Below are positions 59,508 through 64,000 of a stretch of DNA of 64,000 nucleotides, one piece after another (position 1 is the first letter of the stretch; the number at the start of each line of letters is the position of its first letter). A program made the translations under genes and the position numbers. This stretch comes from Robiginitomaculum antarcticum DSM 21748 (GTDB lineage: Bacteria; Pseudomonadota; Alphaproteobacteria; Caulobacterales; Maricaulaceae). The stretch covers positions 372,001 to 436,000 of the forward strand of contig NZ_KB823011.1 of the NCBI RefSeq assembly GCF_000365025.1, given 5' to 3'. The notes under the pieces are model-generated. The model was not told where the DNA came from and did not search any database. It saw nothing but the letters and a program-made list of their open reading frames with translations.

Positions 59508-60137
59508 TTAACGCACAATTTTTGCAAGAATGTTGACCATAGATGCATGCGCCGGTTCGTTACCAATATTTGTGATGCAATGCGGACGGTCCGCGCGGTA
59601 TCGCAAGGTTTCGCCCGTGCGGCCCTCAAATATCTCTCCCGCGACATCGACGCGGATATGACCCGACAAAATAGACAGGTTTTCAATAGAGCCGGCAGGA
59701 TGCGGCGAGCTCTGCAACTGCCCGCCGGGTTGAGCCAAAAAGTCATACCATTGGACAAATTCGACCGTATCAATGCTGCCAAGAATTTTTAGAGTTACAA
59801 GCCCATCATCACTGCTCAGTAGCGGGATGTCTTTACGCTTGGCATGTTCAATCAATGCGGGAAGGTCCTCATCGTTTTCATTGACCGCAGACAAAACCGC
59901 TTCCACAGTCGTGCCCAGGGCAACAGACAGGCGCGTTATTGTTGCCAGCGTCGGATTAGACTCGTTTTTCTCGATTTTGGAGATCAGGCTTTTGGCAACG
60001 CCGGAATGTTCGGACAAATCGCCGAGTGACATGTCTTCAGCTTGGCGTAGACGCGAAATTGTCGCGCCGAAATGCGCGCCAATGGCGCTGCAGGCCGCAT
60101 TTTTTTGTCGTTTTGGTTTGCTCATTTTGCTGTTCAC
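59508..60137 (-). CDS. XRE-family transcriptional regulator with C-terminal cupin
   Basis: Helix-turn-helix domain at about residues 22–80 (SRLRQAEDMSLGDLSEHSGV, then SLISKIEKNESNPTLATITRLS), followed by a cupin sensor domain (about 105–205) with PGGQLQSSPHPAGSIENLSIL and HCITNIGNEP. Such proteins usually sense a small metabolite. It is divergent from cysG, and a perfect palindrome with a half-site lies in the shared promoter region, so it probably regulates itself and the siroheme/sulfite reductase operon (inference). Length is 209 residues. Confidence 0.9.
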   Translation of the reverse strand: MNSKMSKPKRQKNAACSAIGAHFGATISRLRQAEDMSLGDLSEHSGVAKSLISKIEKNESNPTLATITRLSVALGTTVEAVLSAVNENDEDLPALIEHAKRKDIPLLSSDDGLVTLKILGSIDTVEFVQWYDFLAQPGGQLQSSPHPAGSIENLSILSGHIRVDVAGEIFEGRTGETLRYRADRPHCITNIGNEPAHASMVNILAKIVR

Positions 60138-60163
60138 AGTTCTATGATTAAAAAAACACGTAT

Positions 60164-60192
60164 TTGATCTTTAAAAATCTTAATCGTTCTAT
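60164..60192 (+). promoter_or_regulatory. Putative promoter of the cysG–cysI operon
   Basis: TTGATC at 60164–60169 and TTCTAT at 60187–60192 with a 17-base spacer. The -10 box lies inside the palindrome at 60186–60201, so a bound protein would block RNA polymerase. Confidence 0.5.
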
Positions 60193-60201
60193 ATATAGAA
60201 C
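60186..60201. promoter_or_regulatory. Perfect 16-base palindrome, operator candidate for the XRE-cupin regulator
   Basis: GTTCTATATATAGAAC is fully self-complementary. A half-site GTTCTAT recurs at 60139–60145, right at the start of the regulator gene. A 14-of-16 match, GTTCGATATAGAGAAC, occurs at 61866–61881 inside the DUF2849 gene. Confidence 0.7.
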
Positions 60202-60240
60202 ACTTGAGTTAAACAAGTCCCGTTTTGGATGAAGGCCGCT

Positions 60241-61629
60241 ATGCGTTACTTACCGATACATATTGATACCCAAGACGGGCGCATTGTCATCGTCGGCGGG
60301 GGAGCTGCGGCCGAAGCGAAATTGCGGACGCTGGTGAAGACCGAAGCCGTGCTTGATGTCGTCGCCACCCGGATCACTCCTGAAATCGCGCGCTGGGCAG
60401 AGCAGGGCAGGGTCAACCATAGCGCCCGCGAATTTGTAGAGAGTGATTTAGACGGTGCTTTGCTCGTCTATGCGGCCAGCGAGGACGACTCTGATAATGC
60501 CATGATCTCGGCTCTGGCCCGCGCACGCGGCATTCCCGCAAATGCTGCTGACCAGAAAGCCGCTTGTAGCTTTATTACGCCGGCTCTGGTTGACCGCTCA
60601 CCCGTGGTTGTATCGATTGGCACAGAGGGCACATCACCGGGATTGGCGCGCGCGATTAAAGCTGAATTTGAAACATTGCTTCCCTCTACATTAGGCACAC
60701 TTGCGTTACATATCAAAGATTTGAGAGCTAAAGTTAAACGCTCTTACCCCGAGCTTGCGGCGCGTCAGCGCTTCTGGGCTGCTATTTTCGGCAAGGGCGA
60801 TTTGAATTCGCAGCTGCGCCTGAGTGAGGCGGCTTTAACGCAACACGTCGAGATGGCAATCGAGCAGGGCGAAGCAGCCTTAGGCGGCACGATCAGTCTT
60901 GTCGGCGCGGGTCCGGGTAATCCTGATCTATTAACCCATCAAGCGCGGCAAAAACTGCATAGCGCTGACGTTGTCATATATGACCGTCTGGTCAGTCAGG
61001 GCGTATTGGATTTCGCCCGCCGTGAGGCTGAGTACATCTATGTCGGCAAAGAGGCGGGCGGCGTGTCTACGCCCCAAGAGCATATTAATGCATTATTGAT
61101 AGAAAAAGCGCGCCAAGGGCTAGCTGTCGTGCGGCTGAAAGGCGGCGATCCGCTCATTTTTGGGCGTGCAGACGAAGAACTGGACGCGGCACGTGCCGCC
61201 GGCATACCCGTGGAGATTTGCCCGGGAATCACCTCTGCGGCGGCGGCTGCGGCGGCTATCGGGCAGTCTTTGACATCACGCGGGGTGAATAAGTCTATAA
61301 CCTATATGACGGGTCACGATACCAAAGGTTTTGCGGAGCAGGATTGGGCGCGATTCTCAAAGCCTGGCGCCCGTGCGGCGATCTATATGGGCGTTGGCGC
61401 GGCGCGCTTTATCCAAGGGCGGCTTATGCTGTACGGAGCAGTCCCTACGACGCCTGTCACTATAGTTGAAAATGCATCACGTCCCGAGCAGATCATTCTT
61501 GCAACAACAGTTTCCACATTGCCGGAGGCCCTGAAGCGCGGGGGCATTACGGGGCCGGCCATATTGCTTCTAGGGTTTACGCCCGCGCAATCTGTTGCCG
61601 CTTCATTGTCCAGAAAGGCCGCCTTATGA
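60241..61629 (+). CDS. cysG: Siroheme synthase CysG
   Basis: Multifunctional enzyme that makes siroheme from uroporphyrinogen III. The N-terminal precorrin-2 dehydrogenase/ferrochelatase part begins RYLPIHIDTQDGRIVIVGGGAAAEAKLR, and the C-terminal SUMT methyltransferase (from about residue 210) shows ISLVGAGPGNPDLLTHQARQ, VIYDRLVSQGVL and VVRLKGGDPLIFGR. An ATG at 60229 is in frame, but the one at 60241 has AGG at proper spacing and the family N-terminus, so it is preferred. Length is 462 residues. It supplies the cofactor for the sulfite reductase encoded next. Confidence 0.94.
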   Translation: MRYLPIHIDTQDGRIVIVGGGAAAEAKLRTLVKTEAVLDVVATRITPEIARWAEQGRVNHSAREFVESDLDGALLVYAASEDDSDNAMISALARARGIPANAADQKAACSFITPALVDRSPVVVSIGTEGTSPGLARAIKAEFETLLPSTLGTLALHIKDLRAKVKRSYPELAARQRFWAAIFGKGDLNSQLRLSEAALTQHVEMAIEQGEAALGGTISLVGAGPGNPDLLTHQARQKLHSADVVIYDRLVSQGVLDFARREAEYIYVGKEAGGVSTPQEHINALLIEKARQGLAVVRLKGGDPLIFGRADEELDAARAAGIPVEICPGITSAAAAAAAIGQSLTSRGVNKSITYMTGHDTKGFAEQDWARFSKPGARAAIYMGVGAARFIQGRLMLYGAVPTTPVTIVENASRPEQIILATTVSTLPEALKRGGITGPAILLLGFTPAQSVAASLSRKAAL

Positions 61630-61976
61630 GCAGTTTGAAACATAAAGGCGTCGGCCCGCAGGCCATGACCGCCAATGGTCTTCGTAAAGGGCCGGTTGTC
61701 TATATGCGCGAGCAGCTGGATTGGAGCACGGATTATGCCGAGGCGCTGATTACCGAGGATGAAGAGATAATCGCGCATATGGACGAAGCTGCCCAATTGG
61801 CGTCTGTAAATAATCTGGTGGTGGGCGCCTACTTTATTGATATTGACGCCGATAGTCGGGAGCCTGTTCGATATAGAGAACGGTTTCGGATGAATGGTCC
61901 AAGCTTTGATCCGGGGCGTCCCACATACGCTGAGCATGCCAAAACCCACGGCGCAACGCGATTAAGCGAGAGCTAA
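61626..61976 (+). CDS. DUF2849 domain protein
   Basis: Short protein (116 residues) found in alphaproteobacterial sulfite reductase operons. Visible: MTANGLRKGPVVYMREQLDWSTDYAEALI near the N-terminus and NNLVVGAYFIDIDADSREPVRYRERFRMNGPSFDPGR near the C-terminus. No enzymatic motif; the function is unknown. It overlaps cysG by four bases and ends one base before cysI, so it is translated with both. Confidence 0.88.
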   Translation: MSSLKHKGVGPQAMTANGLRKGPVVYMREQLDWSTDYAEALITEDEEIIAHMDEAAQLASVNNLVVGAYFIDIDADSREPVRYRERFRMNGPSFDPGRPTYAEHAKTHGATRLSES

Positions 61977-61977
61977 T

Positions 61978-63633
61978 ATGTATAGATATGACGAATTTGA
62001 TCATCAATTTGTGCAGTCCCGCACGACGCAGTTCCGCGACCAGGTTATGCGCCGTTTGGATGGCCGCCTGACAGAAGAGCAGTTCAGGCCACTGCGCCTA
62101 ATGAACGGGCTATATCTGCAATTGCACGCTTATATGCTCCGCGTGGCTGTGCCATATGGAACGCTGCGCAGTGACCAATTGCGCAGGCTTGCTGATATAG
62201 GCGAAAAATATGATCGCGGCTACGGCCATGTCACAACGCGCCAGAATATGCAGTTCAATTGGCCTGAACTGGTCAATGTACCGTCAATATTGGACGATCT
62301 GGCCGAGGTTGAAATGCACGCCATTCAAACCTCCGGAAATTGCATTCGTAATGTGACGTCTGACCCTTGGGCCGGTGCGGCGCAGGACGAAGTTGAAGAC
62401 CCGCGCCCGACCTGCGAGCTTTTGCGCCAATGGAGCAGTCTGCATCCGGAATTCACATTCTTGCCGCGCAAGTTTAAGATTGCGGTTACCGCATCTGAAA
62501 ATGACCGCGCTGCAATTCGCGCCCATGATATCGGTATCAAGATTGTTCGCAACGCGGCAGGTGAGGTCGGTTACCACATCTATGTTGGTGGTGGTCTGGG
62601 CCGAACGCCCATCATCGCAAAGAGCCTGAATGATTTTGTCCCGCGCGACGAGCTGCTCAACTATCTGGAAGCTGTCATGCGGGTTTATAACCGTTATGGG
62701 CGCCGCGATAACAAATATAAAGCGCGCATCAAGATATTGGTGCAAGAGACTGGAATTGAACAGTTTCGCTGTAATGTAGAGGCCGAATATGCCGCGATGA
62801 TCCCTGCCGACATTACGGTTGACGCAGAGGAGCTGGAGCGCATTGCAGAATATTTTTCGCCGCCGAAATTTGAAGCCGTGAGTCAGAATTCCGGCGAAAT
62901 AGAGGCGCAGCGCAAGGCTGACCCTGAATTCGCGCGCTGGTGCAATGCCAATTTAGGTGAGCACCGCATGGCCGGCTATGCCATCGTCAATGTCTCGCTA
63001 AAGCCCATCAAGGGCGCGCCGGGTGATATCACAAGCGAGCAAATGCGCGTTGTTGCGGATTTAGCGGATGACTATAGCTTTGGCGAAATTCGCTTCACTC
63101 ATGAGCAAAATGTTGTCTTGCCGCATGTGAAACGCTCTGAGGCTTTAGCTGTTTATGACGGCCTAAAAGCGGCTGGACTAGCAGCGGCGAATATTAACAA
63201 AATTACCGATATAATCTGCTGCCCCGGTATGGATTATTGCGCGCTGGCGACGGCCCGCTCAATTCCGGTCAGTCAGGCGATAGCCCAGCGTTTCGCCGAT
63301 CCTGAGCGCCAGACTGTTATCGGCGAAATGAAGATCAAAATCTCAGGCTGCATCAATGCCTGCGGTCATCATCATGTCGGTCATATTGGCATTTTGGGTC
63401 TCGAGAAATCCGGCGTGGAATTCTATCAGGTCACGTTGGGCGGCGATGCGACAGAGACGGCCACAGTGGGCGATAAGACCGGTAAGGGCTTTTCACAGGA
63501 CGAGCTTATTGACGGTATTGAGCGGATGGTTGATTTTTATATTGAAGCCCGTGAGGGACAGGAGCGTTTCTTGGACACTTACCGCCGCATGGGCATAGCC
63601 CCCTTTAAGGAGGTGCTTTATGCCGATCATTAA
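61978..63633 (+). CDS. cysI: Assimilatory nitrite/sulfite reductase, hemoprotein subunit
   Basis: Reduces sulfite to sulfide (or nitrite to ammonia) with siroheme and a 4Fe-4S cluster. Two ferredoxin-like repeats are present. The cluster ligands lie in CCPGMDYC (C-x5-C) and SGCINACGHH (C-x3-C) in the C-terminal half; the siroheme-contact arginines fall in VTTRQNMQFNW and GNCIRNVTSD. Length is 551 residues. Its position in the cysG–DUF2849–DUF934 operon favours sulfite as substrate. It overlaps the DUF934 gene by 14 bases. Confidence 0.94.
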   Translation: MYRYDEFDHQFVQSRTTQFRDQVMRRLDGRLTEEQFRPLRLMNGLYLQLHAYMLRVAVPYGTLRSDQLRRLADIGEKYDRGYGHVTTRQNMQFNWPELVNVPSILDDLAEVEMHAIQTSGNCIRNVTSDPWAGAAQDEVEDPRPTCELLRQWSSLHPEFTFLPRKFKIAVTASENDRAAIRAHDIGIKIVRNAAGEVGYHIYVGGGLGRTPIIAKSLNDFVPRDELLNYLEAVMRVYNRYGRRDNKYKARIKILVQETGIEQFRCNVEAEYAAMIPADITVDAEELERIAEYFSPPKFEAVSQNSGEIEAQRKADPEFARWCNANLGEHRMAGYAIVNVSLKPIKGAPGDITSEQMRVVADLADDYSFGEIRFTHEQNVVLPHVKRSEALAVYDGLKAAGLAAANINKITDIICCPGMDYCALATARSIPVSQAIAQRFADPERQTVIGEMKIKISGCINACGHHHVGHIGILGLEKSGVEFYQVTLGGDATETATVGDKTGKGFSQDELIDGIERMVDFYIEAREGQERFLDTYRRMGIAPFKEVLYADH

Positions 63634-64000
63634 TGCCGGTCGCGCTGTGACGGATCACGGTGATACGCCGCCTCCAATGGAGGATTTCCTTGGCCGTAAT
63701 CACGGGCGCAGCGTCACGCTGCCGCCGGACGCGGATCTCAATACGCTGGAACCAAGATTATCCGGGCTAACTGACATAGAGGTTGGATTTCCGGCTTTTA
63801 CCGATGGGCGCGGTTTTTCCATCGGAAAACAGCTTCGCAGAATGGGCTTTGAGGGCAGGTTGACCGCCACAGGGCCGATTATTCCCGATCAATATGTTTA
63901 TGCATTGCAATGCGGATTTGACCAGATCAAAATTGATGAGGAGACATTTTCGCGCTTTGGCGAGGCGGATTTCAAAACGGCGCTCGATGCTTTTGCGCTG
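63620..64000 (+). CDS. DUF934 domain protein (cut by window end)
   Basis: The gene begins at an ATG with AAGGAGG before it and runs off the window. The 127 visible residues include LSGLTDIEVGFPAFTDGRGFS and LRRMGFEGRLTATGPIIPDQYVYALQCGFD, the DUF934 core. This family regularly follows cysI and is thought to be an accessory of sulfite reductase or electron delivery. In relatives cysH and a ferredoxin reductase follow; these would lie beyond the window. Confidence 0.9.
   Translation, partial: MPIINAGRAVTDHGDTPPPMEDFLGRNHGRSVTLPPDADLNTLEPRLSGLTDIEVGFPAFTDGRGFSIGKQLRRMGFEGRLTATGPIIPDQYVYALQCGFDQIKIDEETFSRFGEADFKTALDAFAL

Follow-up and report, generated by a model that had tools for sequence, protein, structure and literature searches.

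Assimilatory sulfate and sulfite genes are controlled by CysB, a LysR family regulator that also controls itself and belongs to a different protein family from the XRE-cupin regulator described here. SutR (YdcN) of Escherichia coli is likewise an HTH-cupin protein, and the title of a 2015 paper by Yamamoto ties it to sulfur utilization. SutR shares 26% identity over 172 residues with our regulator and, unlike it, is not beside cysG or fpr (a ferredoxin-NADP-reductase-like gene) in the stretch examined. Inspected by eye, the sutR upstream region had no dyad resembling GTTCTATATATAGAAC, the site presented below; given this and the level of identity, we do not claim orthology. In Pseudomonas aeruginosa, the XRE-cupins (ErfA, PsdR, PauR, and others) are presented in PMC7901475 as local specialized repressors with palindromic motifs. 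They have in common with the regulator described here the XRE and cupin domains, the few targets, a site by their own gene, and the palindromes (PMC7901475), while the word "sulfur" is absent from the main text of that paper. Unlike them, our regulator has a predicted target, fpr, that is unlinked and deeply conserved. The best solved-structure match, both by sequence and by fold, was an HTH_3 regulator of Vibrio cholerae (PDB 1Y9Q).

The regulator and the divergent sulfite reduction operon

The window, that is, the whole stretch of 64,000 nucleotides analyzed, comes from Robiginitomaculum antarcticum DSM 21748. Its features of interest are the following.

59508..60125, minus strand: XRE-cupin transcription regulator (HTH_3 plus Cupin_2), from Pfam, alignments, a structure model, and PDB searches
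60126..60240, no strand: divergent intergenic region with the promoters of the regulator and the cysG operon, from gap alignments and promoter scoring
60186..60201, no strand: putative 16-bp perfect palindromic operator GTTCTATATATAGAAC, from a dyad scan and gap alignments
60241..61629, plus strand: cysG siroheme synthase, gene 1 of the operon (NCBIfam PRK10637 above cut-off; start from the conserved MRYLPI)
61626..61976, plus strand: DUF2849 protein of the operon (Pfam PF11011)
61978..63633, plus strand: sulfite/nitrite reductase hemoprotein, CysI-like (Pfam NIR_SIR; NCBIfam matches below cut-offs)
63620..64000, plus strand: start of a cysH-like gene (398 aa, extending beyond the window), from sequence reading and position

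A preliminary description of this DNA, made from the sequence alone, had placed a perfect palindrome between an XRE-cupin regulator and a sulfite reduction operon. The dyad was confirmed at 60186 to 60201, and Pfam and NCBIfam bore out the regulator and the operon genes (an HTH_3 plus Cupin_2 regulator, CysG, DUF2849, and a NIR_SIR-type reductase). The name cysI is based on the Pfam family and the operon context, the NCBIfam CysI score being under its cut-off, and cysH was named by sequence reading and position. The CysH-like protein (63620 to 64000 in the window; L165:5621-6817) has a long N-terminal extension, which may be a DUF934-like part fused to it.

The regulator is 205 aa long, and its start is probably the ATG at 60125, since the conserved N terminus of its relatives begins there. 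Both domains scored above their cut-offs (PF01381, 40.8 bits against 23; PF07883, 37.1 bits against 27.2), and the NCBIfam equivalog PuuR was ruled out (33.5 bits against a required 211). In the AlphaFold model (mean pLDDT, 84.7), the C-terminal half was rich in beta strands and its fold matched 6b8w and 1y9q; the pTM was 0.56, and the placement of the domains was therefore not used. His142, Glu148, and His182 of the cupin were kept in 30 of 30 aligned proteins and may form a metal site. Judging from the targets, the cupin ligand would be a sulfur metabolite.

Sites resembling GTTCTATATATAGAAC with up to three mismatches occurred twice in the window against 0.11 expected, a count that none of 100 shuffles reached. 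The second of these (61866 to 61881, two mismatches) lies inside the DUF2849 gene and was discarded as a coincidence, as the same gene in 40 relatives had at best four or more mismatches. The exact 16-mer had only two copies in the whole genome (2.77 Mb, five contigs) and none in the reversed control; a palindrome beside the regulator's own gene together with few targets is the arrangement characteristic of XRE-cupins. Looser sites in this genome, with up to three mismatches, were no more common than in the reversed control (8 versus 11), and for that reason sites with three mismatches were not used. A half-site had also been reported at the regulator start; GTTCTAT is indeed present at 60139 to 60145, but it was absent in the relatives, including the closest one, and we dropped it as part of the operator.

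Conservation of the dyad among relatives

The phylogenetic footprinting proposed in the preliminary description was carried out on 47 distinct regulator-cysG gaps (73 before merging identical ones, leaving out G080, where cysG is in fragments). The palindrome was kept along with the gene pair, with the 16-mer exact in 42 gaps and carrying one mismatch in four and two in one. Mean pairwise identity was 98.5% in the dyad versus 28 to 40% in the adjoining 16-base windows, and the GTTC/GAAC arms were as invariant as the center. This supports, as a putative operator, the local switch for siroheme and sulfite reductase suggested before.

Along similar lines, 18 of 61 related genomes had an orthologue of the regulator (the count excludes 11 of 29 matching genomes with a best E above 1e-28), and cysG was divergent from it in all 18. 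The exact 16-mer was present in 17 genomes, every one with the orthologue, and the gap of the 18th had GTTCGATATATAGAAC, with one mismatch. When the family was considered (137 genomes), the site with at most one mismatch appeared in 48 of the 48 genomes with the regulator and was nearly restricted to them, as only 5 of the 89 in which no regulator was detected had one. Two of these five are fpr sites in genomes 75 to 77% complete, one lies beside a piece of the regulator at the edge of a contig, and two are unrelated sites at LysR-type genes. Regulator-bearing CysG proteins formed one group in the CysG tree (support, 100/96), and for this reason the co-occurrence counts do not represent independent events but go back to few evolutionary ones. 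Fisher p-values take no account of this and were given no weight. The weight of the evidence lies instead in conservation over deep divergence and in the unlinked copies.

The sites in G112 and G116 (LysR/pirin genes) were set aside as unrelated, as were those in G097 and G099, which adjoin GAAC-N7-GAAC, an alphaproteobacterial form of the LexA box, and the one at G032:C18, inside an ORF. At L147 and L148, in two genomes without the regulator, dyads of the GTTCTATAAATAGAAC type precede genes of the LysR type.

In total, 69 named loci lay in genome contigs, and those of Hellea balneolensis, Litorimonas cladophorae, and Algimonas arctica each had the operon genes in unchanged order together with the exact 16-mer. 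In one near-complete genome (G089, locus L142), the regulator frame is split in two pieces, and the cysG operator has two mismatches and the fpr site one. In G080 (L141), the regulator, the exact operator, and part of cysH remain, with cysG and cysI matched in fragments only, indicating a decaying operon or an assembly fault. Several gaps (L125, L128, L133 to L135, and others) had a weaker GTTC-N8-GAAC dyad, GTTCAATCAAGTGAAC, about 6 bp to the cysG side of the operator, possibly a second site.

Unlinked sites upstream of fpr

The second exact copy in the genome of R. antarcticum is 97 bp upstream of the unlinked fpr (this and the mutase, folE-like, cysD-like, and cysN-like names used here were assigned by eye). 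Extra exact copies among the first 61 genomes preceded fpr in five of five cases (G000, G002, G003, G031, and G035), in two contexts: in one, fpr diverges from a mutase gene, and in the other it follows a folE-like gene. Across the 18 regulator genomes, the best match ahead of fpr had no mismatch in five, one in nine, two in two, three in one, and four in one, while 12 fpr copies from relatives without the regulator had best matches of 5 to 9 mismatches. Resampled sequences mostly gave 6 or 7 mismatches, with four or fewer in 52 of 3,600. The two sites with three and four mismatches are within the reach of chance. One further genome (G137) had a one-mismatch site with a cysH-like gene on one side and the divergent cysD- and cysN-like genes on the other. 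In five of five regulator-less loci inspected, fpr was in line with cysG-cysI-cysH.

The copy at fpr, which the preliminary description had overlooked, argues for a small regulon rather than a single-site switch, and the predicted target set would cover sulfite reduction, its cofactor, electron supply, and, once, sulfate activation. We infer that the palindrome is a high-affinity site for a dimer of the adjacent XRE-cupin protein, which would control its own expression as well as that of the divergent cysG-DUF2849-cysI-cysH operon and of fpr, the likely electron source for the reductase. Through sulfur status sensed by the cupin domain, it would switch sulfite reduction jointly with the supply of reductant. 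On the available sequences, we regard this reading as very probable.

A bidirectional promoter element, or a chance A+T-rich palindrome, could also place TATATA, usable as a −10 both ways, in this gap. This explanation is highly improbable in view of the arms, invariant like the center, and of the recurrence of the site at the unlinked fpr and cysH/cysDN loci; at fpr, moreover, the dyad sits outside the core promoter.

Promoter geometry and sign of control

A consensus promoter scan of 59800 to 60600 returned no passing promoter. With a looser score, the best promoter having its −10 inside the dyad read toward the regulator in 29 of the 47 gaps and toward cysG in 16, mostly with a poor −35. 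The overlap of the palindrome with the cysG −10, as first described, is partly supported, being possible for the genus of the window (TTAAAA-N17-TATAGA), and neither the consensus scan nor the looser score over the 47 gaps placed a firm cysG promoter. The dyad lies 29 to 88 nt from the cysG start codon, and the 29 to 60 nt found in most gaps is often too short for a promoter in between. The regulator-facing −10 in 29 of 47 gaps suggests autorepression.

The picture at fpr differs. Among 28 distinct upstream regions, 23 had a conserved TTG-N17-TA promoter at fixed distances, with the dyad upstream of it. Assuming that transcription starts 7 nt after the −10, the dyad center was near −52 in six and near −64 in 17, about one helical turn apart. 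This geometry is more usual for activators and a poor fit with simple repression, whereas the geometry at cysG and at the regulator's own gene favors repression. With the precedent of the XRE-cupin family, we lean towards repression that would be lifted when reduced sulfur is short.

The same regulator and operator might instead activate cysG and fpr under sulfur limitation, as CysB does, and repress only the regulator itself. Such a scheme is favored by the matching register of the dyads in the 23 fpr promoters, and in a few cysG gaps (L111, L113, and L119) a TTGTAA-N16/17 promoter follows the dyad at a distance of 8 bp; the SutR of E. coli is annotated as a dual regulator. We consider activation a serious alternative, though the less likely one, since most gaps leave too little room for a downstream promoter before cysG and the Pseudomonas XRE-cupins are described as repressors in PMC7901475.

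Homologues beyond the family

Two loci from MAGs filed as Hyphomicrobiales (L214 and L215) had the regulator (54 and 51% identity) with cysG divergent, and their dyads were GTTCTTTTTAAAGAAC or GTTCTGTTTAAAGAAC, that is, the pattern GTTCT[TG]TTTAAAGAAC. A third MAG locus (L216) ends just past the site. Genome-wide in three outside MAGs, GTTCT-N6-AGAAC occurred 11, 11, and 6 times versus 4, 0, and 3 in the control, and the 15 of these 28 places inspected as loci included no fpr match. Homologues in another family (L243 to L245; 49 to 53% identity) had GTTC-N8-GAAC 55 to 74 bp upstream of themselves and other neighbors.

These last loci bear on whether the dyad serves another regulator, with the XRE-cupin gene merely a neighbor. 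Binding by the XRE-cupin protein is predicted from sequence, and short GTTC/GAAC words are also found next to LexA-type boxes and genes of the LysR type. However, the homologues have GTTC-N8-GAAC despite their different neighbors, and within the family the exceptions to the pairing of site and regulator come down to incompleteness and two unrelated sites. We therefore find a different cognate regulator improbable and retain the XRE-cupin protein as the one that would act at this site.

Of 385 genomes sampled across the class, 92 matched the regulator profile. The best 29 homologue loci (26 to 53% identity, own locus aside) had no cysG, cysI, cysH, or fpr alongside, and the sulfur link is therefore particular to this clade. 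Homologues of ca. 30% identity (L224 to L226, L230, and L246) had another dyad, ATTCCAATATAC(A/G)GGAAT, located some 25 bp ahead of the aligned start. Two others (43 to 44% identity; L247:1489-2257 and L248:1486-2226) were divergent from a metZ-like gene (O-succinylhomoserine sulfhydrylase), identified by eye, which looks like another sulfur link.

CysB and the place of the proposed regulon in the family

The E. coli CysB query found no CysB in the genome of the window, where the sole LysR-type match at E ≤ 1e-10 was OxyR-like (225 bits to OxyR against 96 to CysB, whose cut-off is 436). CysB control is therefore unlikely here, in line with the initial proposal of a control differing from the LysR type, and the small neighboring regulator seems to fill the role played by CysB in E. 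coli.

Although the type of regulator is known from SutR and the Pseudomonas XRE-cupins, the operator and the regulon look undescribed in the literature searched. Record-level searches (sulfite reductase and sulfur regulons, XRE/cupin, alphaproteobacterial regulation, and the genera) retrieved no paper on this operator, and the control of sulfate assimilation in marine Caulobacterales without CysB seems undescribed there as well. The locus offers a clean case of XRE-cupin recognition, in which the GTTC-GAAC arms are constant and the center shifts with divergence. With a defined operator, regulator, and targets, it is testable in the cultured Hellea balneolensis, Litorimonas cladophorae, and Algimonas arctica. 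Electron supply, through fpr, would join the sulfur regulon. It is fairly likely that, in one clade of the Robiginitomaculaceae, a regulon of one regulator and essentially two operons replaces CysB, its nearly invariant 16-bp operator coupling sulfite reductase to the NADPH-ferredoxin supply, so that genes lying outside the cysG-cysI-cysH-fpr cluster of the relatives would share an operator.
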